Part shown: piece by piece, positions 11,007 to 31,970 of the stretch | How positions within the stretch are numbered: position 1 is the stretch's first letter | Layout: every line of letters starts with the position of its first letter | From: a virus | Virus record (IMG/VR): IMGVR_UViG_3300037427_002639 | Coordinates: 1 to 31,970 of that record | Direction: 5' to 3' (one strand) | DNA: 31,970 nt | The notes under the pieces: model-generated | What the model was told of the DNA's origin: nothing | The model's database searches: none | Seen by the model: the letters and a program-made list of their open reading frames with translations, nothing else | Made by a program: the position numbers and the translations under genes

Positions 11007-11798
11007 TTGGATGACAAACAGAACTCTCATGCAAACCTTCTGATGCGTAAATATTTTGCAGAGAATACTAGTTTGGGTAAGGAGCAACGACTATATCAGT
11101 TACTATTGGAAGAGTCGGCATCGAATGAAGTTCATGCTGAACGTTTGGTAAATGCGGTTTCCGAATCACATAAGAAACTGGACTCCAAGCAACTTGCACA
11201 ACTTAGATATGAGTTGGTTAGAGAAATGCGTGACGCATATCCAATTGACGATTTTCTCAGATCAAAGATTTCAAACTATAAAACATATGCAAGTATTTAT
11301 AAGTTATTTGAAAGTAAATCGCAAAATGTATATTGTGATGCAAAGGAATTGTATGAGTCTAGAAATACTGTTATTGCAGAACTTTGTAACAAACGCAGAC
11401 AAAAATCCTCTGAGGATTTGAATGTAGCCGAGGCATATGAAAAGCACAACGAAGACCTTCGTCTAATAAGTTATAGATTGTTGGTAGACCGGTTTAATGA
11501 CAAATACAGTGATCTGAATGAAGATCAACAAATGTTGCTTAAGAATTATATAAATAACATTTCAAACACCAATAGTCTGCGAGAATATGTAAATAAGCAG
11601 ATACCAAAGGTAAAATCACGACTCGAAGAATTGACAACTACCTGTGTAGATGATGATGTGGTTAAAATTAAGTTGGGTGAGGTGGTTGCTCAATTAAATA
11701 AGATTTCCGATGGACGTCTTGTCAAGGATTCACAAGTTTCTACATTGCTTATGTCATATGAATTGATTAAGGAACTTGAGAAGCATGACAACAACTGA
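11007..11798 (+). CDS. conserved head/core-region protein (263 aa), probably N-terminally frameshifted
   Basis: The frame is open from 10977; possible starts are TTG 11007 or ATG 11043, neither with a convincing ribosome site. This fits the view that the true start is GTG 10928 in another frame (see that entry). The protein is largely helical and charged, with the landmark YKTYASIYKLFE at ~91-102, which I recall from conserved hypothetical proteins next to the portal in marine T4-like phages. Position between portal and prohead protease corresponds to the T4 prohead-core genes 67/68. Its end overlaps the next start by 14 bases. A core or head-assembly role is inferred from location only. Confidence 0.7.
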   Translation: MDDKQNSHANLLMRKYFAENTSLGKEQRLYQLLLEESASNEVHAERLVNAVSESHKKLDSKQLAQLRYELVREMRDAYPIDDFLRSKISNYKTYASIYKLFESKSQNVYCDAKELYESRNTVIAELCNKRRQKSSEDLNVAEAYEKHNEDLRLISYRLLVDRFNDKYSDLNEDQQMLLKNYINNISNTNSLREYVNKQIPKVKSRLEELTTTCVDDDVVKIKLGEVVAQLNKISDGRLVKDSQVSTLLMSYELIKELEKHDNN

Positions 11799-12345
11799 AA
11801 AACAAATTCGAAGTATTGTACGCAATCTAGTGCGTGAGATTTTATCAGAAAGACATGATTGTGATGTTGTACATCCAGATATGTCACACGATGACTGGGA
11901 GTCTTCTCAGAATTCTATAGAGGAATTAACGGCAACGGCAAATGTAGATGGATATCAAACACCGTTCGCATTTTCAAATAACACAGAGGACGAACATGGT
12001 GAGGATATGAAGGATACTGCGGAAGTGTTTGATTTTAAGAAAACTGAAAACGATTCACCTAACACTGTAAAACTTGAGGAGGGTAAGAGTTTATATCATT
12101 TATTTAGAGATCACTCGGACTATAGTCCAGCACAGAAGATTGGAGTTACGGTTAGAGAAGTCAATCGTTTGTTAACAGAAATTGAAAAGTTGTTACGTGT
12201 CAGTTCACGATTCAAGACCGAAACAAAGGTCGGCACGGAGAAGTTTTGGAAGACAACAAACCGATACTTATCAAATATTGATGAGAAGATATTTAGAATA
12301 TTAAATAAAGTTAAAGATATTAAGGAAAAAAGTTATGAAGAATAG
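11785..12345 (+). CDS. putative prohead-core-region protein (186 aa)
   Basis: I prefer ATG 11785 over the in-frame TTG at 11776; a GGAA-type site lies upstream and the start overlaps the previous gene by 14 bases. The N-terminus TTTEKQIRSIVRNLVREILSE is a short amphipathic segment shared in style with proteins at 14416, 14864, 15607 and 16445. An acidic middle contains GYQTPFAFSNN, a motif I recall from marine T4-like phage proteins. The C-terminal ~80 residues are helical (LLTEIEKLLRVSSRF...). ILSE followed by Arg could be a protease-processing point but deviates from the T4 gp21 consensus. Function unknown; a prohead core role is inferred from position. Confidence 0.7.
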   Translation: MTTTEKQIRSIVRNLVREILSERHDCDVVHPDMSHDDWESSQNSIEELTATANVDGYQTPFAFSNNTEDEHGEDMKDTAEVFDFKKTENDSPNTVKLEEGKSLYHLFRDHSDYSPAQKIGVTVREVNRLLTEIEKLLRVSSRFKTETKVGTEKFWKTTNRYLSNIDEKIFRILNKVKDIKEKSYEE

Positions 12346-13778: not shown

Positions 13779-14414
13779 ATGAATATGGCTAAACAAGTGA
13801 TAGTATCTACACGTCCCTTTGAGTTTACACGGGAGCAGATTTCGGAGAGCATGACGGAAAATGACGGTCGGTTGATTGTCAGAGGAGTTTTGCAAAAGGC
13901 CCGTGAGCAGAATCAAAATGGAAGGGTATATACCAGAGAATTGTTGGAACGAGAATCTGGTAAATATCAAGAATTAATTGATGATAAACGAGCATTGGGT
14001 GAACTCGATCACCCAGATAGTGCAGTTGTGAATTTGCAAAATGTGAGTCATAATGTCAAGAAAATGTGGTGGGAAGGAGATAGTTTGCTGGGTGACGTAG
14101 AGGTACTCGGTACACCTGCCGGAAATATATTGAAAGAATTGTTTAAGTCTGGTATAACACTTGGTATAAGTTCAAGAGGGATGGGTACTACCAGAGAATC
14201 CGAGGGAAAGACTCTAGTGAATGATGATTTTGAACTCGTTGCCTTTGATTTTGTCAGCAACCCGTCTACTCGGGGTGCTTTTCTTGAACCTGTTAATTTG
14301 AGTGAATCGGTTGATCCCACCAAGTCGATTGTAACTGAGGGCCGGGTGTGTTCGAAGTATTGTAAAATTGAGGGAATTATACACGAAATATTGGGTGGTC
14401 TCGGAGAATCTTAG
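13779..14414 (+). CDS. 21: prohead core protease (gp21-like)
   Basis: The 211-residue protein matches the T4 gp21 (herpesvirus-assemblin-like serine protease) type: GRVYTRELLERE, then GELDHPDSAVVNLQNVSH with the candidate catalytic His at 78, GDVEVLGTPAG, and GISSRGMG with the candidate nucleophile Ser at 131/132, followed by LVAFDFVSNPS. It would be packaged in the prohead core and cut the scaffold, core proteins and major capsid protein after I/L-x-E. Two starts are possible (13779 or 13785, MNMAKQ). The C-terminus contains NLSE|S and IVTE|G, candidate self-cleavage points. It lies among core-type genes, upstream of gp22 and gp23, as in T4. Confidence 0.93.
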   Translation: MNMAKQVIVSTRPFEFTREQISESMTENDGRLIVRGVLQKAREQNQNGRVYTRELLERESGKYQELIDDKRALGELDHPDSAVVNLQNVSHNVKKMWWEGDSLLGDVEVLGTPAGNILKELFKSGITLGISSRGMGTTRESEGKTLVNDDFELVAFDFVSNPSTRGAFLEPVNLSESVDPTKSIVTEGRVCSKYCKIEGIIHEILGGLGES

Positions 14415-14415
14415 T

Positions 14416-14877
14416 ATGGAAAAGAATGATGTTATAAGACTTATTAAGGAAAGCATACTTGAGGTTGCTAAAGAACAACGTGACCAGTTGAGTGAATTTA
14501 ATCCTGCAACCGGACGATTTTCCGATGAAGGATTATCCACCGAACAAAAGAAACTTACATCAGAGAAGATATCTAAGTTCGGCAATTACCAAGCATATAT
14601 TGCTCATGAAGCAAAGGACACGGACGTCGCTGCTGATATTTGTAATATTGTTGAAAACGCATCTAAATATATTCTCAATGAAACTGATGACTGGTTCGAT
14701 GCAATGAGTGTAAAACGAAATTTGAAGGAAATTAAGGTTCTTGCAAAGGAATTTTACAAAACCGCATCCGAACGACAAGTGTATACACAACGTATGCAGA
14801 GTTTGTACGAGGATATGGGCAATATTTTAAACAGATATTTTGAAATAAATGGGGAGGTTACCGATGAACCGAAGTGA
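14416..14877 (+). CDS. putative prohead-core-region protein (153 aa)
   Basis: I chose ATG 14416 (one base after the protease stop, GGAG at about 14406-14409) rather than the upstream in-frame ATG at 14368, which overlaps the protease gene. The protein opens with the amphipathic segment MEKNDVIRLIKESILEVAKE, followed by EFNPATGRFSDEG, a pattern I recall from marine phage proteins, and then an all-helical body. ILE|V in the opening segment is a possible gp21 cleavage point. Small, soluble, helical and placed just after the protease: a core or capsid-internal protein is plausible but not shown. Confidence 0.7.
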   Translation: MEKNDVIRLIKESILEVAKEQRDQLSEFNPATGRFSDEGLSTEQKKLTSEKISKFGNYQAYIAHEAKDTDVAADICNIVENASKYILNETDDWFDAMSVKRNLKEIKVLAKEFYKTASERQVYTQRMQSLYEDMGNILNRYFEINGEVTDEPK

Positions 14878-15592
14878 ATTGAAGGAACACGTGTTCCGAG
14901 TTTTACTTGAGACACTTGAGTATCCATGTGAGGTACATGGATCACTTGTAAAGAAATCTATGGGGTTTTCCGGATACGAACGAGAATCTGTATGTGAAGG
15001 AACTGTTGACGACGTCAATAAGTTTGCAACTGAGCAGAATTTAAGTTTTGTAAAGTCAACCGACTCACATTTTGGTGGTTATTATGAGGCAGACTATAAT
15101 GTTATATATGAATTCATACCAAATGATGAGTATTATGGTGAGATGATGGAATCGGAAATGTCCGTCTCCGATTCACTTGCAAGACTGAATGGGGATAACG
15201 ATAAGATTCTCGAAGAACTTGACTCCGAGCAGATTTCCGAATTTATACAATCTTTAATGGACAACGCAAGTTTTCTTGAAAATCGTGTAGTACCTGTGTT
15301 TATGAATGCAACTACACGAATTGTTGAGGGGATGGTAGATCCAAAGCAAATCAACAGACTATTGGAAGTTATCATTACACAGGGACTTAAAACTGTATTT
15401 GCGGAAGATATTTCTTTGTCTCAAAATCAACACCGAATTGCCATAGAGCAACTGCGTACAGAATTGAACAATCATATCGAATCATACACCGAGTCGTGCG
15501 AATCGTGTACAACACCGGATTATAGAGGAATTTTACTTAAAAATTACGGAAGAGTTTTGGGTGATGTTAAAAATATTTTACCAACTACATAA
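14864..15592 (+). CDS. hypothetical core-region protein (242 aa)
   Basis: ATG 14864 has an excellent ribosome site (GGGGAGG, 14850-14856) and overlaps the previous gene by 14 bases; the in-frame ATG at 14849 has no such site. The N-terminus MNRSELKEHVFRVLLETLE is again a short amphipathic helix. Residues ~20-90 look like a compact alpha/beta region with Tyr/Gly-rich FGGYYEADYNVIYEF. The remainder is helical with many acidic residues. No catalytic motif is seen. Function unknown; context places it in head morphogenesis. Confidence 0.72.
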   Translation: MNRSELKEHVFRVLLETLEYPCEVHGSLVKKSMGFSGYERESVCEGTVDDVNKFATEQNLSFVKSTDSHFGGYYEADYNVIYEFIPNDEYYGEMMESEMSVSDSLARLNGDNDKILEELDSEQISEFIQSLMDNASFLENRVVPVFMNATTRIVEGMVDPKQINRLLEVIITQGLKTVFAEDISLSQNQHRIAIEQLRTELNNHIESYTESCESCTTPDYRGILLKNYGRVLGDVKNILPTT

Positions 15593-15606: not shown

Positions 15607-16329
15607 ATGAAAATTACAAGAAAAGAACTTAAAGAGATTATTCACGAAGTTGCAGACGAATTGGGACTTTTTGAAGGACTAACCAAGGCACAAGAGAAAC
15701 TTCCAGAACCACTCAAGGCAGCTATTCTCAAGAAACAGGAGTCTGATTCTGATGATAGTGTTGAGGAGGGTCTGACAAAGGCACAAGAGAAACTTCCAGA
15801 ACCACTTAAGGCCGCAATTCTTAAAAAGCAAGAAGAAGATGTTGATACAGATGAGATATCTGAAGGTAACGCATGGGGTTCTGCAATCCGCAAGGCCCGT
15901 GAGGAGAACTTAAACGAATTTGAATTCAATGGTAAGGTTTATACACTAACTGAAGTTGCATCCATAGAAGAAACTTCCGATGATACGGAGGAATTTACTG
16001 GAGAGCATGACGAGGAAGTTGAAGAAGGAAATGCCTTTGGAGATGCCGTTAGAAAAGCAAAAGCAGACGGAGAAGACGAATTTGAAGTTGATGGCAAGAC
16101 CTATAAGGTTACTGAGGGTGCTTCCTGCACTTCCGAAGATGACGAAGAAGTTGAAGAAGGAAATGCCTTTGGAGATGCCGTTAGAAAAGCAAAAGCAGAC
16201 GGAGAAGACGAATTTGAAGTTGATGGCAAGACCTATAAGGTTACTGAGGGCCGAACCAAGAATTTCCAAGGGTGTACACTATCCGAAACTTTCGCAAGAA
16301 TCTCAGGAAATAAGAAAATTATTACTTGA
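15607..16329 (+). CDS. modular repeat protein of the core region (240 aa)
   Basis: The protein begins with the amphipathic segment KITRKELKEIIHEVADE and is then built almost entirely of repeats. Two copies of a ~22-residue unit containing KAQEKLPEPLKAAILKKQ (from ~residue 24 and ~55) are followed by one diverged and two identical copies of a ~35-residue unit containing GNAFGDAVRKAKADGEDEF and FEVDGKTYKVTEG. The unit borders (EISE|G, VTE|G) match the gp21 protease consensus. The repeat modules recall acidic modules of marine-phage head proteins. It sits directly before the scaffold gene and is followed by a terminator. I infer a prohead-core protein cut into small peptides; only the repeat structure is directly seen. 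No clear Shine-Dalgarno site precedes the ATG. Confidence 0.8.
   Translation: MKITRKELKEIIHEVADELGLFEGLTKAQEKLPEPLKAAILKKQESDSDDSVEEGLTKAQEKLPEPLKAAILKKQEEDVDTDEISEGNAWGSAIRKAREENLNEFEFNGKVYTLTEVASIEETSDDTEEFTGEHDEEVEEGNAFGDAVRKAKADGEDEFEVDGKTYKVTEGASCTSEDDEEVEEGNAFGDAVRKAKADGEDEFEVDGKTYKVTEGRTKNFQGCTLSETFARISGNKKIIT
15685..15806 (+). repeat. two copies of a 29-base identical segment within a longer repeat
   Basis: Bases 15685-15713 and 15778-15806 are identical; the surrounding ~66-base units (15676-15741 and 15769-15834) encode the same peptide with a few synonymous changes. The pair is in frame in the modular repeat protein. Confidence 0.85.
16015..16250 (+). repeat. exact 104-base direct repeat, offset 132 bases
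   Basis: Bases 16015-16118 and 16147-16250 are identical at every position by direct reading. The offset of 132 is 44 codons, so the frame is kept. Identity at synonymous sites indicates a recent duplication or gene conversion. Confidence 0.9.
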
Positions 16330-16444: not shown

Positions 16445-16534
16445 ATGATTGGAAACAAGACCAAAGGTTTTAACCTGATTGAAGTCCTTAATGACTTTAG
16501 AAAACTAATCAAGGAAATTATACACCATGAGTAA
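16445..16534 (+). CDS. possible 29-residue ORF in the scaffold leader
   Basis: The ORF begins ATG ATT GGA and ends TAA, overlapping the scaffold start (ATGAGTAA). It encodes a peptide whose second half, LNDFRKLIKEIIHHE, closely resembles the N-terminal segment of the 15607 protein (RKELKEIIHE). The scaffold's ribosome site AAGGAA lies inside this ORF, so its translation could be coupled to that of the scaffold. No good ribosome site precedes its own ATG. A second, 12-residue ORF starts at 16435. It may be a real core peptide, a regulatory leader peptide, or chance. Confidence 0.35.
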   Translation: MIGNKTKGFNLIEVLNDFRKLIKEIIHHE

Positions 16535-17804
16535 ATTATTGAAAGAGGCTATTGCTGACGCAAAGGCCGTCCGTGAGACTGCACTTGCTAATGCAAGACT
16601 TGCACTTGAGGAAGCATTCGCTCCAAAATTGCAAAGTATGCTTACAAAGAAACTAAGAGAAGACGAGTCACTTGAAGATGACGAAGTTGAAGCTGCTGAA
16701 GACGAAGTTGCCCTAGAGGATGACGAAGTTGAAGTTGCTGATGACGAAGTTGCCCTAGAGGATGACGAAGTTGAGGCTGAAGAAGAAGCATCTGCTGAAG
16801 AAGCTGAAGAAGAAGCACCTGCTGAAGAAGAAGCATCTGCTGAAGAAGAAGCACCTGCTGAAGAAGAAGCACCTGCTGAAGAAGAAGCATCTGATGAAGA
16901 AGCATCTGATGAAGTTGAAGAAGACGATCTTTATGAAGATAGTCTTGATCTTGAAAGTATCATTAAAGAGTTAGAAGATGACTTGGCAGTTAATGATGAA
17001 GAAGACGCAGAAGACGTTGCCGAGGAAACTGAAGAAGTTTCTGAGGACGCAGAAGAAATCACCACCGAAGACGAAGAAGTTGCAGACGAAGAAGAAGAAG
17101 TTCCTGCGGAAGTTGAAGATGACTCCGAAGAATCTGAAGAATCTGAAGAAGTGGCAGAAGACGTTACCGAAAGTGATGAAGTTGTAACCGAAGACGATGA
17201 AGAAATTTCTCTCGAAATTGTTGAAGAAGACGAAGAAGTCCCCACAGAGGATGACGAAGTTACTTCTGACGATGAGGACGGGGACGAAGAAATTAATTTG
17301 GAAGAAATCTTGAAGGAACTTGAAGAAGAGACTTCAATTGAAGAAACCGAAGAATCTTCATCCGAACTCGAAGAACTTACATCTGCAAACGAAAAACTGC
17401 AAAAAGAAAACGATGAATACCGCAAGGTTTACAAATATTTGCGTGGTAAGTTGAACGAAGTGAATTTGCTAAATGCGAAACTTCTTTATACAAATAAGTT
17501 GTTTAAGGAGTTTGCATTGGTAGAGGACCAAAAATTGAAGGTCGTAGAAAGTTTTGATCTCACGAAGAATGTTCGTGAAGCAAAGTTGGTCTACGCAACC
17601 CTTGGAGAATCATTCAGAACAACAGTTGAATCGAATGAACCGAAGGCAGAGGTAGTAACTGCTCCTGCAAAGAAGTCAACGAAGACACTTACTGAGGGAT
17701 TTGCATCCAAGGCAATTAAATCAACAAAACCGTCCAAGCAGATCTTATCGGAAGGCAATGACCTTGCTAACCGTTTCAAGAAACTTGCCGGAATTGCTGA
17801 GTAA
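16527..17804 (+). CDS. 22: prohead core scaffold protein (gp22-like)
   Basis: A 425-residue, overwhelmingly acidic protein. The N-terminus (MSKLLKEAIADAKAVRE) and the C-terminal third carry the recognisable scaffold signature: a coiled coil (LTSANEKLQKENDEYRK), KYLRGKLNEVNLLNAKLLYTN, then LVEDQKLKVVESFD and VREAKLVYATLGES. Between them, residues ~50-260 are Glu/Asp repeats, longer than in T4 gp22 (about 270 residues in total). LTE|G (after residue 390) and LSE|G (after 409) match the gp21 cleavage consensus. The protein would form the transient inner core around which gp23 assembles and then be digested. An AAGGAA ribosome site precedes the ATG; the capsid gene follows after 40 bases, probably on the same transcript. 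Confidence 0.92.
   Translation: MSKLLKEAIADAKAVRETALANARLALEEAFAPKLQSMLTKKLREDESLEDDEVEAAEDEVALEDDEVEVADDEVALEDDEVEAEEEASAEEAEEEAPAEEEASAEEEAPAEEEAPAEEEASDEEASDEVEEDDLYEDSLDLESIIKELEDDLAVNDEEDAEDVAEETEEVSEDAEEITTEDEEVADEEEEVPAEVEDDSEESEESEEVAEDVTESDEVVTEDDEEISLEIVEEDEEVPTEDDEVTSDDEDGDEEINLEEILKELEEETSIEETEESSSELEELTSANEKLQKENDEYRKVYKYLRGKLNEVNLLNAKLLYTNKLFKEFALVEDQKLKVVESFDLTKNVREAKLVYATLGESFRTTVESNEPKAEVVTAPAKKSTKTLTEGFASKAIKSTKPSKQILSEGNDLANRFKKLAGIAE
16677..16760 (+). repeat. 42-base tandem repeat, two copies, in scaffold gene
   Basis: Copies at 16677-16718 and 16719-16760 differ at only two positions and encode DDEVEAAEDEVALE / DDEVEVADDEVALE. A partial third copy follows at 16761. Confidence 0.85.
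16779..16920 (+). repeat. GAAGAAGAAGCA-type short repeats encoding Glu/Ala tract
   Basis: About eight imperfect units of 12-18 bases encode EEEAPA/EEEASA. Such tracts change copy number easily by slippage; frame is preserved because units are multiples of three. Confidence 0.85.
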
Positions 17805-17844: not shown

Positions 17845-19383
17845 ATGAGCGAAATTAGTAAATTACTAAAAGATAGTCAAAATCCACAAGCAAAACTTAT
17901 GGCAGAAACCCGTGGTCTTGTTTCCAAGTGGGAAAAAACTGGATTATTAGAAGGTATCTCAAACGATACCGAAAAGAGTGGTATGTCCATTCTTCTTGAA
18001 AACCAAGCAAAGCAGCTGATAGACGAGGCTGGAAGAAGTGGAACCGGTGGTTCTGGTTCGGAAGAGTGGAGTGGAGTAGCACTTCCCCTCGTTCGTCGTG
18101 TGTTTGCAGAAATCGCAGCGAAGGAATTCGTTTCGGTTCAACCAATGAATCTTCCATCAGGATTGATCTTTTACTTAGACTTTAAGTATGGAACAGACCA
18201 ATCCCGACAAGGTTCGACCGGAAACGCAAGTTTGTTCGGTGGATCAGCAAATGCAAAAAACGGTTCAACCGACAAGGCCGAAGGTGGTCTATACGGCACA
18301 GGTCGTCATGGTTATTCGTTGAACGATAAACAAACATCGGGAAATGTTGCAATTGTTGCAGTAACAGAAGGTGAAGGTGAGGCCGCAAAGGTGGTTCAAA
18401 CTTACATCGTTGCACCGGGTGATGCGGATGTTGACGGAGCACGTGCATTCACAATTGGTGATGATACACACCGAATCACAGGTTCGGAATTGCAAGCTGA
18501 CGGCACAACCGTTCACTTGATCACGGACTCGGAAGTTGCAGTTGCGAACGCTGGTAAACTTACATACCATGTTCAAACAACTGATAGCACCCGTGGTGAC
18601 TTCGAAGTAAGTTCTTCACAAGACTTCCACGGTGATGCAAGTTCCACCGGTGATGACGTCGGTATTCCTGAAGTTAACTTGGAACTCAAAAGTGAACCAA
18701 TCGTTGCAAAGACACGTAAGTTGAAGGCAGTTTGGACACCTGAGTTGGCACAAGACCTCAATGCTTACCATAGTGTTGACGCAGAAGCAGAACTTACGTC
18801 ACTTCTTTCCGAATACGTTTCAATGGAAATTGATTTGGAAATTCTTGACATGCTTCTTACGAATGCACATACAGACGGTGGTACATTTGCAGCTGATGCA
18901 GCTGGTGCTTCATTGTTCGGTGGTGAAACACAAGGTTCTTACTTCCAACGTCTTGGAACAAAGATTCAATCGGTGAGTAACACAATTCATCAATTGACTC
19001 TTCGTGGTGGTGCAAACTTCTTGGTTTGTTCTCCACAAGTAGCAACCGTTCTTGAAAGTATTCCAGGATACGCTGCTGACACTGATGGAAATCAGTCCCA
19101 GTTTGCAATGGGTGTTACCAAGGTAGGTGCATTGAACAATCGTTTCCAAGTTTACAAGAACCCATACATGACAAGTGGTGAAGTTCTTGTTGGATTCCGT
19201 GGTTCTAACTTCCTCGAAACAGGTGCAGTTTATGCTCCGTACATTCCGTTGATCCAAACTCCTTTGGTATACGATCCGGTCAACTTTACTCCACGTCGTG
19301 GTGTAATGACCCGTTATGCCAAGAAGATGGTTCGTCCAGAATTCTACGGAAAAATCTCCGTTTCAGGTACAGAGTCTCTGTAA
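17845..19383 (+). CDS. 23: major capsid protein (gp23-like)
   Basis: The 512-residue product has the T4 gp23 (HK97-fold) signatures: VALPLVRRVFAEIAAKEFVSVQPMN, and EPIVAKTRKLKAVWTPELAQ followed by DLNAYHSVDAEAELTSLLS, and the C-terminal GFRGSNFLETGAVYAPYIPL and MTRYAKKMV. Length agrees with T4 (521). IDE|A at residues 59-62 matches the gp21 consensus at nearly the same place as the T4 maturation cut (E65|A66), so a ~61-residue propeptide is predicted. Residues ~110-270 include Gly/Ser/Thr-rich and beta-rich segments that probably correspond to the surface insertion. A ribosome site (AAAGGAAAT) precedes the ATG, and a strong terminator follows the stop. Assignment is firm. Confidence 0.97.
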   Translation: MSEISKLLKDSQNPQAKLMAETRGLVSKWEKTGLLEGISNDTEKSGMSILLENQAKQLIDEAGRSGTGGSGSEEWSGVALPLVRRVFAEIAAKEFVSVQPMNLPSGLIFYLDFKYGTDQSRQGSTGNASLFGGSANAKNGSTDKAEGGLYGTGRHGYSLNDKQTSGNVAIVAVTEGEGEAAKVVQTYIVAPGDADVDGARAFTIGDDTHRITGSELQADGTTVHLITDSEVAVANAGKLTYHVQTTDSTRGDFEVSSSQDFHGDASSTGDDVGIPEVNLELKSEPIVAKTRKLKAVWTPELAQDLNAYHSVDAEAELTSLLSEYVSMEIDLEILDMLLTNAHTDGGTFAADAAGASLFGGETQGSYFQRLGTKIQSVSNTIHQLTLRGGANFLVCSPQVATVLESIPGYAADTDGNQSQFAMGVTKVGALNNRFQVYKNPYMTSGEVLVGFRGSNFLETGAVYAPYIPLIQTPLVYDPVNFTPRRGVMTRYAKKMVRPEFYGKISVSGTESL

Positions 19384-26350: not shown

Positions 26351-26842
26351 ATGGCAGAGTTAATCGAAGCACAAGAAATGTTTTTTACGGCGTTTGAACC
26401 GAAAACTTCAAATCGCTTTATTATGTATGTTGACGGAATTCCCGCATATCTTATCAAGGGGATGTCACGTCCAACATTAGCAATCGAGGTCAACACCTTA
26501 GATCACATCAACATCAAACGCAAAGTCCGAGCAGGTAAGGCAGAGTGGCAAGACATCACAATGACACTTTATGATCCCGTTGTACCAAGTGCGGCGCAAG
26601 CAACAATGGAATGGGTTCGTCTCTCCCACGAATCTGTTACCGGTAGAAACGGATACGCAGACTTCTATAAGAAAGACCTCGTATTCAATATGCTAGGACC
26701 AGTTGGTGATAAGGTAGAAGAGTGGACGATAAAGGGTGCGTTTATCAACAACGCAACTTTCGGAACACTTGATTGGGCAACAGGTGACCCAATGACCGTG
26801 GAATTGACGTTATCATACGATTACGCAATTCTTCAATACTAA
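26351..26842 (+). CDS. 19: tail tube protein (gp19-like)
   Basis: At 163 residues it has exactly the T4 gp19 length and the usual pattern: EPKTSNRFIMYVDGIPAYLIKG, NIKRKVRAGKAEWQDITMTLYDP, MEWVRLSHESVTGRNGYADF, and EEWTIKGAFINNATFGTLDW ending in VELTLSYDYAILQY. The subunits stack as hexameric rings inside the sheath to form the DNA channel. A ribosome site (GGAG, about 26337-26340) and a T-rich promoter region precede it, and a UUCG-type terminator follows, so it is probably made in large amount from its own transcript. Assignment is firm. Confidence 0.97.
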   Translation: MAELIEAQEMFFTAFEPKTSNRFIMYVDGIPAYLIKGMSRPTLAIEVNTLDHINIKRKVRAGKAEWQDITMTLYDPVVPSAAQATMEWVRLSHESVTGRNGYADFYKKDLVFNMLGPVGDKVEEWTIKGAFINNATFGTLDWATGDPMTVELTLSYDYAILQY

Positions 26843-26874: not shown

Positions 26875-26902
26875 AAAACTTCCTTCGGGAAGTTTTTTTT
26901 TG
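26875..26902 (+). terminator. rho-independent terminator after tube gene
   Basis: Stem AAAACTTCC (26875-26883) with GGAAGTTTT (26888-26896), closed by the stable tetraloop TTCG and followed by a T run. Confidence 0.9.
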
Positions 26903-26909
26903 GCCAGTA

Positions 26910-26919
26910 TATATTTATT
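26910..26919 (+). promoter_or_regulatory. putative late promoter TATATTTATT
   Basis: It ends four bases before ATG 26924 without a Shine-Dalgarno site; leaderless-type geometry. Confidence 0.5.
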
Positions 26920-26923
26920 GAAC

Positions 26924-27265
26924 ATGAATAAGACTTTATTGAAGCAAACTATTCTTGAACTTTTCGAAGAAGTTAAGTTGGAAAACTCGGATTCCGTAAA
27001 TTTGGACGAGTCCTTTAAACCAGCATATCACTCTCTTCTTAAGTTTTTATTAAAGATGGTACACAAGGGAAAGTTTCGTAGACCATACGATGTTGACACA
27101 AGTTCCGGACGATTGGTGTTTGTCACAAAGGGTGGGAAGAAACTTATAATTAACGATGCCAATATTGGAATCACTATCTTAAAAACGTGGAAAGGTAAAA
27201 GAGATAAAAATTTCTTTGACTACAGTGAGCATGATGAAATCATGAAATTTGCTCTGGCAGACTGA
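26924..27265 (+). CDS. hypothetical protein (113 aa) with N-terminal amphipathic segment
   Basis: I chose ATG 26924 because the upstream in-frame TTG (26900) lies in the terminator and promoter. The N-terminus MNKTLLKQTILELFEEVKLEN resembles the opening segments of the core-region proteins. The remainder contains SSGRLVFVTKGGKKLIINDANIGI, a beta hairpin-rich stretch, and a charged C-terminus. It lies alone between terminators/promoters downstream of the tail tube. Function unknown. Confidence 0.65.
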   Translation: MNKTLLKQTILELFEEVKLENSDSVNLDESFKPAYHSLLKFLLKMVHKGKFRRPYDVDTSSGRLVFVTKGGKKLIINDANIGITILKTWKGKRDKNFFDYSEHDEIMKFALAD

Positions 27266-27355: not shown

Positions 27356-28291
27356 ATGGCAGACGATAATACATCAGTAGAACTTCCACCGGAAGTACAA
27401 GAAGCAATGCGAAGAGATGCAGAGAAGAATCCTGCAGCTGCTCAGAAGGCACAACAATCCGCATCGCAACAAAAGGCAACGAATGAATCACCTGTGTTTT
27501 CCCAACAAACAGACCAGGTGCAGACTACTCAATATCCGAGTGAGGTTATTGATTTACCAAGTCGTGGTTGGTTCTACCCACCTGAATCATCATTGGCAAG
27601 AGGTCAAGTTGATATCAAGTATATGACTGCAAAGGAAGAAGATATTCTTACGAGTCAAAATTTAATCAAGAAGGGACTTGTTCTTGACAAGTTGCTTGAA
27701 GAACTTATCGTGACACCAGGTGTTACTTTGGATGATATACTTGTAGGTGATAAGAATGCAATTTTTATCGCTGCAAGAATTCTTGCGTATGGTAAAGACT
27801 ACAAGGTTAAGTTCAAGGACCCATCGACCGGTGACGATGTCGAAGACGTAATTGACTTGACGCACCTAGACAATAAGGAATTTGACTTTGAAAATGCCGA
27901 ACGAGGCAGAAATTTGTTTGAATTTGAACTTCCATATAGTAAAAAGAAGGTACACTGGAGTTTACTCACCCACTCAGATGAAAAGGCAATCGATGCGGAG
28001 TTGAAGAGTCTTAAGAAGTTTTCACGTGACAAAAACCAATCAAGTGAAGTTACAACTCGTTTGAAGTATGTTATTAAGGCACTTGACGGTGAGGATGATA
28101 AGACTAAGATTAAAAAGTATGTTGATACCGAGTTGCTTGCACGGGATAGTCTTTCTTTTCGGAATCATATCAAGGAAAATACTCCTGATATTGATTTGAC
28201 TTTTAATTTTGAATCCGAAGAGACCGGATATACCGAGAGGATGAATCTGCCCCTTGGGGTAGACTTTTTTTACCCTACCGCCAGAGTATAA
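27356..28291 (+). CDS. 26: baseplate hub assembly protein (gp26-like)
   Basis: After a disordered Gln/Ala-rich N-terminus (~1-60) comes the recognisable core: SEVIDLPSRGWFYPPESSLARGQ followed by VDIKYMTAKEEDILTSQNLIKKG, then LDKLLEELIV and DAILVGDKN-type (DDILVGDKNAIFIAARILAYG) segments. This is the pattern of gp26-type proteins of T4-like phages. T4 gp26 helps assemble the baseplate hub. The frame closes with GVDFFYPTARV and TAA, but the gp51-like segment continues in the +1 frame across a run of seven T at 28265-28271, so a longer fused product is possible. A ribosome site (AAAAAGG) lies upstream of the ATG; a TATAAATT box at 27331-27338 is close to the T4 late promoter consensus. Confidence 0.82.
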   Translation: MADDNTSVELPPEVQEAMRRDAEKNPAAAQKAQQSASQQKATNESPVFSQQTDQVQTTQYPSEVIDLPSRGWFYPPESSLARGQVDIKYMTAKEEDILTSQNLIKKGLVLDKLLEELIVTPGVTLDDILVGDKNAIFIAARILAYGKDYKVKFKDPSTGDDVEDVIDLTHLDNKEFDFENAERGRNLFEFELPYSKKKVHWSLLTHSDEKAIDAELKSLKKFSRDKNQSSEVTTRLKYVIKALDGEDDKTKIKKYVDTELLARDSLSFRNHIKENTPDIDLTFNFESEETGYTERMNLPLGVDFFYPTARV

Positions 28292-28514
28292 GGTTAATCT
28301 CCACGAAGAGGTTTTTAACCTATCTTACTACAGTCAGGGAGCATTTACTCAAGAAATTGTATATAACCTTCCGATTCACCTCAGACGGTTTTATGCAAGA
28401 AAACTCATTGACGTAAAGAACAAGGAAAACGAGCACGCCAAGAAAGCTCAACAAGATGCAAAGTCTAAAGCATCCGCTGCAAAGGCTCGTTCACCAAAAC
28501 GTTCATATAAATAA
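28263..28514 (+). CDS. 51: gp51-like hub assembly segment, no start codon of its own
   Basis: This frame opens after a TAG (28260-28262) and has no ATG, GTG or TTG codon until its stop, so it cannot be started conventionally. It encodes LPPEYKVNLHEEVFNLSYYS, then QGAFTQEIVYNLPIHLRRFYARKL and a basic, Ala/Lys-rich tail ending PKRSYK. The stretch from FNLSYYSQGAF to LRRFY is what I recall of gp51-type proteins that follow gp26 in marine T4-like phages. It is most simply read as the C-terminal extension of the gp26-like protein, reached by a +1 (or -2) ribosomal shift on the T7 run, or joined in truth by a one-base sequencing error there. It precedes a terminator and the tape-measure gene. Confidence 0.6.
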   Translation, partial: TFFTLPPEYKVNLHEEVFNLSYYSQGAFTQEIVYNLPIHLRRFYARKLIDVKNKENEHAKKAQQDAKSKASAAKARSPKRSYK

Positions 28515-28622: not shown

Positions 28623-28913
28623 ATGAAAAAGAAGTTATATACCAAATCTCAAATAAACGAAATTGTGGGAAAGATTGCGTCTGCAATTCTCGGTGCAAAG
28701 GCAAAGACACTTTTAAAACTTGCATCTAAAGATCCAGGTCTACATTCTGCTATTATGAGCATGGCAGATGCACAAATAGAACTCAATAAATATATTGATT
28801 CACACTATAATGAAGATACGGTGGAAGATTTGGGTACACGTGTAATTAATAATAAAAAACGATTAGAACAACTTCGTGCAAAGATTAAAAAAAACAGACA
28901 GCGTGACCAATAA
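28623..28913 (+). CDS. small helical protein upstream of tape measure (96 aa)
   Basis: AGGAG precedes the ATG. The protein is basic at both ends and helical throughout (KIASAILGAKAKTLLKLASKD, then MADAQIELNKYIDSHYNEDTVEDL and KRLEQLRAKIKKNRQ). The first part could be an amphipathic or weakly membrane-active helix. It shares a transcript with the tape-measure gene, which starts 29 bases after its stop. Tape-measure chaperone or hub factor is possible from position; nothing specific is recognised. Confidence 0.7.
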   Translation: MKKKLYTKSQINEIVGKIASAILGAKAKTLLKLASKDPGLHSAIMSMADAQIELNKYIDSHYNEDTVEDLGTRVINNKKRLEQLRAKIKKNRQRDQ

Positions 28914-28942: not shown

Positions 28943-31900
28943 ATGCCGCCTGAAGAAGAAGACTTGAATAGTGATAAGATAACACAACTTATTGATATTC
29001 TTAAAACTCATAATTCTGATTTATACACAAGTCTTATAAGTTTAGTCGGGGCAAGTGAGGCATCATTTGAAACGTTCCTTGCTAGATATCAGTCCGAGCA
29101 GAAACAACACGATGCCGATCTCAAGGATATTTTAAAAGCATCTGAGGGTGTTAATTCCCACCTTGAGAGGGACTTGGATAACTTCATATCCGAGTTTACT
29201 CAATATGCGGAAAAGCATCACCGAAACAGTGATGATATATCAAATCTTACTTCAAATCTTGCATCCGAGATGCAAAAACGAATTTCTAAAATTCAAACAA
29301 ATTTAGGTAAACTTGGTAATGCAACTAATTTGTCAATTTCAAATATGACAAGTTTGATTTCAAATTTATCCACCCAATACTCTTCAATGGCAAAGGCATC
29401 TAAGGTTGCAATAAAAACGGCAACACTTGACTCTTCACAAGTAGGGGGTCGATCTGTTGCAAATGGGTTGATCGTAGAAGTAAGCAATGTAGGTGACTTT
29501 AACTCAGCAATCTCAGATGAAACTAAAAAACTCGGTGACCTTGATACAAAACTTGAAAGATCAGGAAATTATGCTAACGCAGAACATGAGTCTATAAAAA
29601 AGGATCAACTAACTGCATCAAGATCACTTGGTGAAATGGAAGGTAGAAAACTTGCAGAAGAGGCCACACAAGACATGAATGGAAACTTCATGGATATGCG
29701 TAAAACGGTGGAAAAAACCGAAGAAGCATTTAAGTCAATGCGTAAATATATGACAGATGGAACTTCTCATTTGGCAAGACAGGCGGATTTCTCGCAGGAT
29801 ATCGCGACTCTTACTGCAAAACGTGTAACTTCATTGGCTGCAGTTGACCGACAAGGCAAGGGTCTAAACTTAGGTAATGGTCTAGAACTAACGGGTTTAA
29901 AGGGTCAGGCGGATAATTTAAAAGGTATGCTTGACCTGCTGAAATCCGGTGCAGTTGAATCCACACGAATTGGACAACTACTTAATTCGGCCGGACAAGA
30001 TGGTGCGAGTTTACTTGAGCAACAAAAAGCAGCCGATGCGTATTTGAAAGACAATGCTTCGGTGGTACAAGAAAATCGTAAAGAATTAATGGATCTTGCA
30101 AAAGAGTCTGCTGTACTGCGTGACAAACTGCAAAATATTAAACCAGGTACGGAAAAATTCAAAGAATTTACGAGTGATCTTGATGACATACGGGGGGCTA
30201 TGTCAATTCTTGGTGATGATATTGCAAAATATGATTCTGTAAAATTAATAAAAGTTGGAATCGATGAACAGATATTAAATCGTAATGTGCTCACAGACCT
30301 TGAGGACGAACTACAAAATCTTGAAGCCGAGGAAGTTAATATAGATGTTAATATGTCTGCACTTGATGAATACCAAGATTTGCTAACACGACTTGCCGAT
30401 CCCGATATACTTGTCCATCAAAGTGAAATTAAACGGGTTGTTGATAAAGTACAAGGTCAGGGTTTTAAAGTAGGAGGAGGAGGACCTTCTGGATTTGCAG
30501 GAGGACTTAGTAGTGCGGATTATGCAGCTGAGTCAAAGAGTTTAGCAAATCAAAAAGACGATCTGTTAAAGATGAAAACAGATGTGGGTCAGCAAAAGGA
30601 AGACGCAGTGCAGAAGGCAGCTGCATCGTCCGAAAGAATTCTTGGTGCGATCCGAGGAACGGTAGATCAAACAAGAGAGAATCTTAAAAATACTGACAAA
30701 TCCCTTGAAAATCTTAAAAAGGGACAGGCAATACATGATCAGGCAGTAAAAACAGGTGTGTGGAGTGATTCAATCATAAAACAACTAGATACCTATAAAG
30801 ATAAAATTCTTGATGTGGTCGGTTCAATTCCAGTTATGGGGGAGGCACTTAAAACTACACTTGAAAAACCATTAAATGAAGTTAACGATAAAATACAAGA
30901 TATAGTTGTTGATGGTATCGGTGGAATGGCCAAAGAAATTGCACAACAATCCAAAGATGGTACACTGTCTGTGTCTGCCAAAATGGGAATAATTAAAGAT
31001 GGGTTCAAGGACATGGGAAAACAAATTTCCGGACTTACCAGTATGCTTACCGGTTTGTTTTCTCCTGCAATTATAGGTGCGGGTATATTGTTTGTTCTGG
31101 TCGGCCTTGCCATTTCTCGTTTTCTTGAACTGGACAAAGCCGCCGAAGACTTCCGACGTGAAGTTGGATTGGGTCGTGATCAGACTGCGGAAATTGAGGA
31201 TGTTGCTAGGAACGTAAATGTTGAATTCCAAAAGTTTGGAATAAGTCTAGAACACGCATTTCACGCAGCCGGAGCATTGACAAGTCAGTTTGGGACACTT
31301 GTAATGGCAACACGTGAAAATGTTGAATTGGTTGCACTTCTCGCAGAGAATCATGCGGTATCAACTGCAAACGCCGCCGGTGCGTTGGATGTATTATCAA
31401 GAGTTGGAGACGGAACTGCGGAGTCGGCAAGAAGTGCAATGCACCTTGCAACGGGAATGGCAAAGGCTGCTGGTGTACCGTTGGATAAGGTTATGGAAGA
31501 CGTTGCCGGTGCAAGTGATGAAACTTTGGCACTCATACGGGGTAGCACTAAAGAATTAATACACGCATCCGTGGAAGCAAGACGTCTTGGTGTATCACTT
31601 GAATCATTAAGTGGAGCAGCTTCTCATATGCTTGATTTTGAGTCGAGTATTAGAAGTGAAATGGAAGCATCGGTTTTTGCGGGTCGTCACTTGAGTTTTG
31701 CAAAGTCAAGGCAACTTGCGTTTGAGGGAGATATCGTTGGAATGCAAAAAGCATCGTTGGAAACAATAAAACAGGCAGGTGAGTGGACTGAGATGAGTTA
31801 CTTTCAACAAAAGAAACTCGCAGAAGCAGCCGGAATGACTGTCGGTGAAATCGGAACTCAACTTACCCGTGAAAAGCAACTTGAAGCATTAAAACACGGA

Positions 31901-31970
31901 ACAGCCGAACAACAAAAAATGTATAATCGGTATATGCAAATGCAGAGTGACCTACAAGAAGGAAATAATA
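28943..31970 (+). CDS. tail tape-measure protein, 3' end beyond the window
   Basis: The frame starts at ATG 28943 (AGGAAAT about 12 bases upstream) and stays open to the last base: more than 1,009 residues. Residues ~1-690 are long charged helices and coiled coils with few aromatic residues, interrupted by a Gly-rich turn (VGGGGPSGFAGGLSS, ~510-525). At ~700-735 there is a hydrophobic segment, LTGLFSPAIIGAGILFVLVGLAI, that can span a membrane. It is followed by KAAEDFRREVGLGRDQTAEI and an Ala-rich helical region with AFHAAGALTSQFG, a type seen in tape-measure proteins of large myoviruses. Great length, coiled coil plus hydrophobic segment and place after the hub assembly genes all fit a tape measure (T4 gp29 analogue) that sets tail length and enters the host membrane during injection. 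Confidence 0.85.
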   Translation, partial: MPPEEEDLNSDKITQLIDILKTHNSDLYTSLISLVGASEASFETFLARYQSEQKQHDADLKDILKASEGVNSHLERDLDNFISEFTQYAEKHHRNSDDISNLTSNLASEMQKRISKIQTNLGKLGNATNLSISNMTSLISNLSTQYSSMAKASKVAIKTATLDSSQVGGRSVANGLIVEVSNVGDFNSAISDETKKLGDLDTKLERSGNYANAEHESIKKDQLTASRSLGEMEGRKLAEEATQDMNGNFMDMRKTVEKTEEAFKSMRKYMTDGTSHLARQADFSQDIATLTAKRVTSLAAVDRQGKGLNLGNGLELTGLKGQADNLKGMLDLLKSGAVESTRIGQLLNSAGQDGASLLEQQKAADAYLKDNASVVQENRKELMDLAKESAVLRDKLQNIKPGTEKFKEFTSDLDDIRGAMSILGDDIAKYDSVKLIKVGIDEQILNRNVLTDLEDELQNLEAEEVNIDVNMSALDEYQDLLTRLADPDILVHQSEIKRVVDKVQGQGFKVGGGGPSGFAGGLSSADYAAESKSLANQKDDLLKMKTDVGQQKEDAVQKAAASSERILGAIRGTVDQTRENLKNTDKSLENLKKGQAIHDQAVKTGVWSDSIIKQLDTYKDKILDVVGSIPVMGEALKTTLEKPLNEVNDKIQDIVVDGIGGMAKEIAQQSKDGTLSVSAKMGIIKDGFKDMGKQISGLTSMLTGLFSPAIIGAGILFVLVGLAISRFLELDKAAEDFRREVGLGRDQTAEIEDVARNVNVEFQKFGISLEHAFHAAGALTSQFGTLVMATRENVELVALLAENHAVSTANAAGALDVLSRVGDGTAESARSAMHLATGMAKAAGVPLDKVMEDVAGASDETLALIRGSTKELIHASVEARRLGVSLESLSGAASHMLDFESSIRSEMEASVFAGRHLSFAKSRQLAFEGDIVGMQKASLETIKQAGEWTEMSYFQQKKLAEAAGMTVGEIGTQLTREKQLEALKHGTAEQQKMYNRYMQMQSDLQEGNN

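Follow-up and report, generated by a model that had tools for sequence, protein, structure and literature searches.

A tail assembly chaperone locus in a T4-related phage lineage, very probably decoded by +1 ribosomal frameshifting

In the viral DNA analysed here (the window, an IMG/VR record of 31,970 bases taken over its full length), one gp26-like locus very probably yields both a short and a long tail assembly chaperone (TAC-N and TAC-NC) through +1 programmed ribosomal frameshifting. The relation between its two reading frames, the conservation of that relation and the place of the shift can be read from the compared sequences themselves; from these we infer that the ribosome rather than the polymerase shifts, that it does so by +1, and likewise that the products function as chaperones. 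The majority of ribosomes would stay in the gp26-like frame until the stop at 28291, producing the short form, TAC-N. A fraction would lose one base at GAC-UUU-UUU-U, where the P-site tRNA-Phe would move from UUU to the overlapping +1 UUU or UUC, and these shifted ribosomes would then read 80 codons in the +1 frame to produce TAC-NC, which is the short form extended by a helical C domain. If the parallel with lambda gpG/gpGT holds, numerous copies of the short form could coat the tape measure protein, and few copies of the long form could recruit tail tube subunits via the C domain.

Genomic context of the locus

The window contains T4-like terminase, portal, sheath and tube genes. The chaperone gene is located between the tail tube and tape measure genes, with small ORFs in between at 26900 and 28623, and the order tube, chaperone, tape measure was also found in immuto, SP-15 and LIS04. 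The features of the locus are the following:

26351-26842, + strand: gp19-like tail tube protein, upstream neighbour (phrog_4542, E=1.6e-22; PF06841, E=2.5e-6, just below the cut-off)
27356-28291, + strand: putative gp26-like short tail assembly chaperone, TAC-N, 311 aa to the 0-frame stop (PF12322, phrog_150)
28263-28279, + strand: shift interval, the common overlap of all the relatives compared
28263-28514, + strand: +1 reading frame of 83 codons, conserved in relatives (dN/dS 0.08 against L008)
28265-28271, + strand: slippery run of seven T, TTT_TTT_T, offering tRNA-Phe a +1 UUU for re-pairing at each Phe codon
28272-28511, + strand: predicted C-terminal extension of the long form TAC-NC, 80 aa out of 385 aa, joined as ...GVDFF/TLPPEYKV... 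(slash at the junction)
28943-31970, + strand: probable tape measure protein of at least 1009 aa, continuing past the window end, assigned by position and length

The gene at 28943 had no Pfam match above the cut-off, and its counterparts in immuto and LIS04 are annotated as tape measure. The ORF between this gene and the chaperone gene (28623-28913) encodes 96 aa, and Mel-JY01 has a small ORF at the equivalent place.

Frame relation and its conservation

The 0-frame ORF (27356-28291) ends ...GTA GAC TTT TTT TAC CCT ACC GCC AGA GTA TAA, and the +1 frame opens after the TAG at 28260-28262 and extends over 28263-28514. This second frame contains no ATG, GTG or TTG, nor any ATT, ATC, ATA or CTG before 28356, a position already inside the conserved C domain. 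The fusion predicted across the junction reads ...GVDFFTLPPEYK. The preliminary description had given the coordinates of the +1 frame and of the T run, the lack of the three usual start codons in the +1 frame, and the continuity of the two frames with six T instead of seven, and all of these were reproduced on the window sequence.

Relatives were collected in three ways: a scan in which viral contigs were queried with the gp26-like protein, returning at least 597 relatives among 600 candidates, of which the best 80 were used; tblastn against phage records, which gave 11 isolates or genomes; and a second scan with the immuto protein as query, which added 80 loci. A DNA-level search of phages produced no match, and scans with the GXN1, LG08 and LR756508 proteins found almost nothing. 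After removal of duplicates, 145 junctions were retained, and 144 of them, which are distinct sequences but not mutually independent, have a conserved C-terminal domain (64-114 aa) encoded in the +1 frame; in the remaining one, L006, it is encoded in the -1 frame. The comparison of junctions that the preliminary description had called for thus returned one and the same frame relation in 144 distinct relatives. The +1 arrangement occurs in isolate genomes that unrelated groups had sequenced (Mel-JY01, immuto, SP-15, LIS04 and GXN1).

A single indel would account for the window taken alone, and one extra T in the assembly had been raised as an alternative. This explanation, to which we attach practically no probability, is refuted by the relatives, because 143 further distinct sequences share the junction, among them independent isolate genomes as well as viral contigs found within MAGs.

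In the alignments of relatives, the conserved product begins directly after the slip, with the pattern FF/GLxxEYRxxLHEQIFxLxYYGxGGFTxxxVYNMPxxLRRFYxxKL. Across 31,896 bases of the C region, the +1 frame contained 0 stop codons and the other two frames contained 462 and 1,374. Codon comparisons show the C domain to be under purifying selection (dN/dS 0.129/1.545 between the window and L008; median 0.40 over 39 pairs).

The C domain could instead be made as a separate protein, by internal initiation or by re-initiation after the 0-frame stop. Cyanophages, KVP40 and a Rhizobium phage do have an annotated ORF for the domain, with an ATG just past the stop, and the overlap of several relatives offers a TTG or ATG. 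However, the start-less frame of the window leaves no such option before the conserved part of the domain. In 31 of the 145 junctions, ATG, GTG and TTG are all absent between the last stop in the +1 frame and a point 60 nt beyond the slip; in the stretch that begins 60 nt ahead of the slip and ends 30 nt beyond it, they are absent in 47 of the 145. A normal start codon for the second protein in relatives, which had been named as the observation that would speak against a shift, is not the situation in the window's clade. Separate initiation is accordingly the least probable of the explanations that assume a correct assembly, and very improbable in absolute terms.

The proposed shift would explain why current annotations overlook or shorten the C domain. 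The annotated C-domain genes of SP-15 (L005:3255-3374) and immuto (L002:3348-3458) begin only at ATG codons further downstream, leaving out conserved residues, and LIS04 and GXN1 have no annotated gene at the C-domain frame.

Shift site and direction

Superposition of all the overlaps placed the latest opening of the +1 frame 2 bases ahead of the first Phe codon and the earliest 0-frame stop 15 bases after that codon; the shift must therefore occur within the equivalent of 28263-28279, an interval filled by the T run and its next codons. Exactly seven T (TTTTTT_TGG or TTTTTT_TAC) are present in 100 of the 144 junctions, TTTCTT_T in 32, TTTCTA_TGG in 4 and TTCTTT_T in 4, the rest being single variants, and Tyr as the A-site codon at the slip is encoded by TAC in 22/22 cases vs 180/703 elsewhere. 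The gp26-like coding sequences of 84 loci, 63,060 bases in all, contain no second run of seven T. These counts take no account of relatedness, and some of the bases concerned are constrained by the +1 reading frame itself.

The variants (TTTCTTT, TTTCTAT, TTCTTTT and others) interrupt the T run yet retain UUU in the 0 frame with U or C as the next base (UUU_Y), so that this motif is present in 144/144 relatives, and tRNA-Phe (GAA) can therefore re-pair fully after a +1 slip in every one of them. With L006 included, full +1 re-pairing is possible at the first Phe codon in 39 junctions, at the second in 5 and at either in 101. Taken alone, the conservation of UUU_Y is weak evidence, because any Phe-Phe or Phe-Leu pair often yields it. 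At the prfB +1 site, UUU is reported to rank among the codons that come next in slipperiness, as given in the PRFect paper (PMC10885494).

The interrupted runs also bear on transcriptional slippage, in which RNA polymerase would make transcripts with six or nine U and ordinary translation would then give the fusion. The run of seven T in 100 of the 144 relatives agrees with this, since six or nine would restore the frame, but in 42 of the 145 junctions the longest T run is just 3 or 4 and the frame relation is unchanged, and an isolate, immuto (TTTCTT_TGG), is among these interrupted cases. Seven T is, moreover, short for transcriptional slippage in bacteria. We regard slippage by the polymerase as unlikely, although it is the least unlikely of the alternatives.

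A -2 frameshift by tRNA-Phe on the T run, which we rate marginally below polymerase slippage, would reach the same frame with full pairing on seven T, and -2 shifts are known for the tail chaperones of Mu-like phages. However, 42 junctions, including TTCTTT_TGG, TTCTTT_CGT and TTTCTA_TGG, do not allow full -2 re-pairing by tRNA-Phe, and none of the junctions loses +1 re-pairing. A Phe-tRNA slip of either +1 or -2 had been proposed in the preliminary description; the comparison favours its +1 part, with re-pairing kept in all 144, and disfavours its -2 part. The two shifts predict different junctions, a +1 shift at either Phe codon giving ...VDFFTLPP... and a -2 shift adding a third Phe (...VDFFFTLPP...).

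For the preferred +1 ribosomal shift, a downstream stimulatory RNA structure was sought with nested folds only and gave no consistent signal (mean z -0.94, controls -0.15 to -0.62). The compared junctions also showed no Shine-Dalgarno-like stimulator that is conserved, so neither element accounts for the efficiency of the proposed frameshift. With UUU_Y, a sense A-site codon and no evident stimulator, the locus could serve as an uncomplicated setting for testing +1 slippage by bacterial ribosomes, here probably of Bacteroidota.

Domains and structure of the product

The N domain of the product matched PF12322 (T4_baseplate; E=1.6e-6, 28.4 bits vs a cut-off of 24.5) and phrog_150 (baseplate hub; E=1.6e-8). 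The C domain of the window had no match in Pfam or PHROGs, and DUF6760 was weakly matched by the C domain of three relatives (best E 1.5e-4). By hhalign, T4 gp26 is a homologue of gp51 (E 2e-20), which is longer by a C-terminal stretch; as judged from these alignments, T4 gp51 combines a gp26-type domain with a further, C-terminal one. The gp51 C-terminal stretch aligned with the C domain of cyanophages, KVP40 and LG08 (hhalign E 3e-7), which in turn aligned with the C domain of the window's clade (E 8e-8); the direct comparison between the window's clade and T4 gp51 was not significant (hhalign E 0.12). In PHROGs, gp51 matched phrog_150 to its end, and the cyanophage C domains matched the last columns of phrog_150 as well as phrog_634. 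The term gp51-like, given earlier to the 83-codon frame, therefore holds for the C-terminal domain of gp51, reached via the cyanophage and KVP40 intermediates, and does not hold for gp51 as a whole or as a direct significant similarity.

The N and C parts were folded separately with AlphaFold from plain translations. The C domain was predicted as three helices (pLDDT 88), and the N domain was modelled confidently, at a mean pLDDT of 83 with residues 26-57 disordered. A fold search of the PDB with the N domain returned nothing significant; HK97 2ob9 and YqbN 3klu appeared at E 2-5 with a target-normalised TM of 0.35-0.45, which is the noise level. For the C domain, the best named viral match in the fold search was 'Tape measure chaperone [Citrobacter phage Moogle]', a weak one (E 0.31, prob 0.99).

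Comparison with known systems

The locus resembles lambda gpG/gpGT in that a single locus between the tube and tape measure genes would give a short and a C-terminally extended chaperone, and the G/GT-type features present in the window are an overlap near the 3' end, an extension lacking its own start and a conserved slippery sequence. The earlier suggestion of a shifted fusion analogous to the lambda G/GT tail chaperone is strongly supported by the comparison of relatives. In lambda and most other tail chaperones, however, the shift is -1, whereas the window's clade has its C domain in the +1 frame, the motif UUU_Y and membership of the T4 gp26 family (PF12322). T4 itself shares the homologous N domain (PF12322/phrog_150), but its two forms are separate, divergently transcribed genes (26 on the - strand, 51 on the + strand) decoded without a frameshift, and T4 gene 51 is a complete gene with a start, unlike the C frame at 28263-28514.

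The cyanophages Bellamy and P-SSM5, Vibrio phage KVP40 and Rhizobium phage LG08 resemble the window in that the gp26-like protein ends in Phe-Phe and a related C domain follows in another frame; they differ in their U_UUU_UUC site, in the -1 frame of the C domain and in an ATG available for separate initiation. Pseudomonas phage Adele (Vandenendeviridae) likewise has a poly-T slip site in a myovirus TAC gene, supported by the same comparative argument, but the direction is -1, the site is GTTTTT and the phage belongs to another group, as its paper presents it (PMC12846349). The archaeal myovirus HSTV-2 resembles the window in that its tail chaperone, with the same role, is described in the Atkins review as very likely made by +1 frameshifting (PMC5009743); it differs in the domain of its host. 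In prfB (release factor 2) the P-site tRNA also slips +1, but on CUU_UGA, with a stop codon and an upstream Shine-Dalgarno, whereas the window's clade has a sense A-site codon and no such conserved stimulator.

The frameshifting of tail chaperone genes is a known kind of event from other phages, and what is proposed for this T4-related clade is its +1 direction. The Atkins review presents the G/GT frameshift as conserved among long-tailed phages except T4 (PMC5009743). The PRFect paper, citing Vladimirov et al. 2022, states that some T4-like phages have short and long TAC genes instead of a frameshift (PMC10885494), and the Adele paper cites the same study for poly-T slip sites (-1) in T4-like TAC genes (PMC12846349). 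A +1 TAC shift in the window's clade was not found in the literature searched, in which Vladimirov et al. 2022 is represented by the papers that cite it. With this clade, frameshifting would be established within the T4 gp26 family, in the unusual +1 direction, and T4 therefore looks like a secondary loss by gene duplication.

Other decodings in the family and their evolution

In L090-L093 (cyanophages, KVP40 and a Rhizobium phage) and in the huge phage L006 (3214-3486), U_UUU_UUC stands at the end of the gp26-like gene and the -1 frame encodes the C domain, although ATG codons for separate starts are available. Where a short gene is annotated as gp51 in these phages, it probably represents the C-terminal part of a frameshifted protein. 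In T4-type phages the two forms have a gene each. In two bacterial chromosomal loci (L191:961-2106 and L192:1357-2124), a PF12322 domain and a C domain are present in one frame, joined as ...FFW... or ...FFM...; L191 has a tube-like protein upstream and is therefore probably a contractile injection system. In a tree whose deep branches are long and several of whose forks are weak, the T4 two-gene set is placed beside the -1 phages, and two +1 clades are placed opposite, with L006 and the in-frame loci.

A broader reading, which we consider reasonably probable, is that a large T4-related lineage uses +1 shifting on UUU_Y for its tail chaperones, comprising mostly phages of Bacteroidota (judged by the MAGs that hold them) together with Bacillus/Listeria/Streptococcus jumbo phages, and that its homologues use -1 shifting, two genes or one continuous frame. 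The boundary between the N and C domains would then be decoded in four ways, nearly always at or near Phe-Phe, and the T4 two-gene set would derive from a frameshifting ancestor.

Other proteins encoded in the window

A short amphipathic stretch was noticed by eye at one end of several unrelated window proteins, e.g. MKITRKELKEIIHEVADEL, KQIRSIVRNLVREILSE and KLRNQIRGILTEILNK. It is carried by the products of 11776-12345, 14368-14877, 14849-15592, 15607-16329 and 26900-27265, and by the C terminus of the product of 1103-1627, and it might be a targeting tag. The protein encoded at 15607-16329 also contains near-identical internal repeats (EGNAFGDAVRKAKADGEDEFEVDGKTYKVTEG), in two copies and a third partial one. 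Directly upstream of the gene at 17845-19383, positions 16527-17804 encode a very acidic, low-complexity protein with runs of EEEAPAEEEAS, possibly a scaffold.
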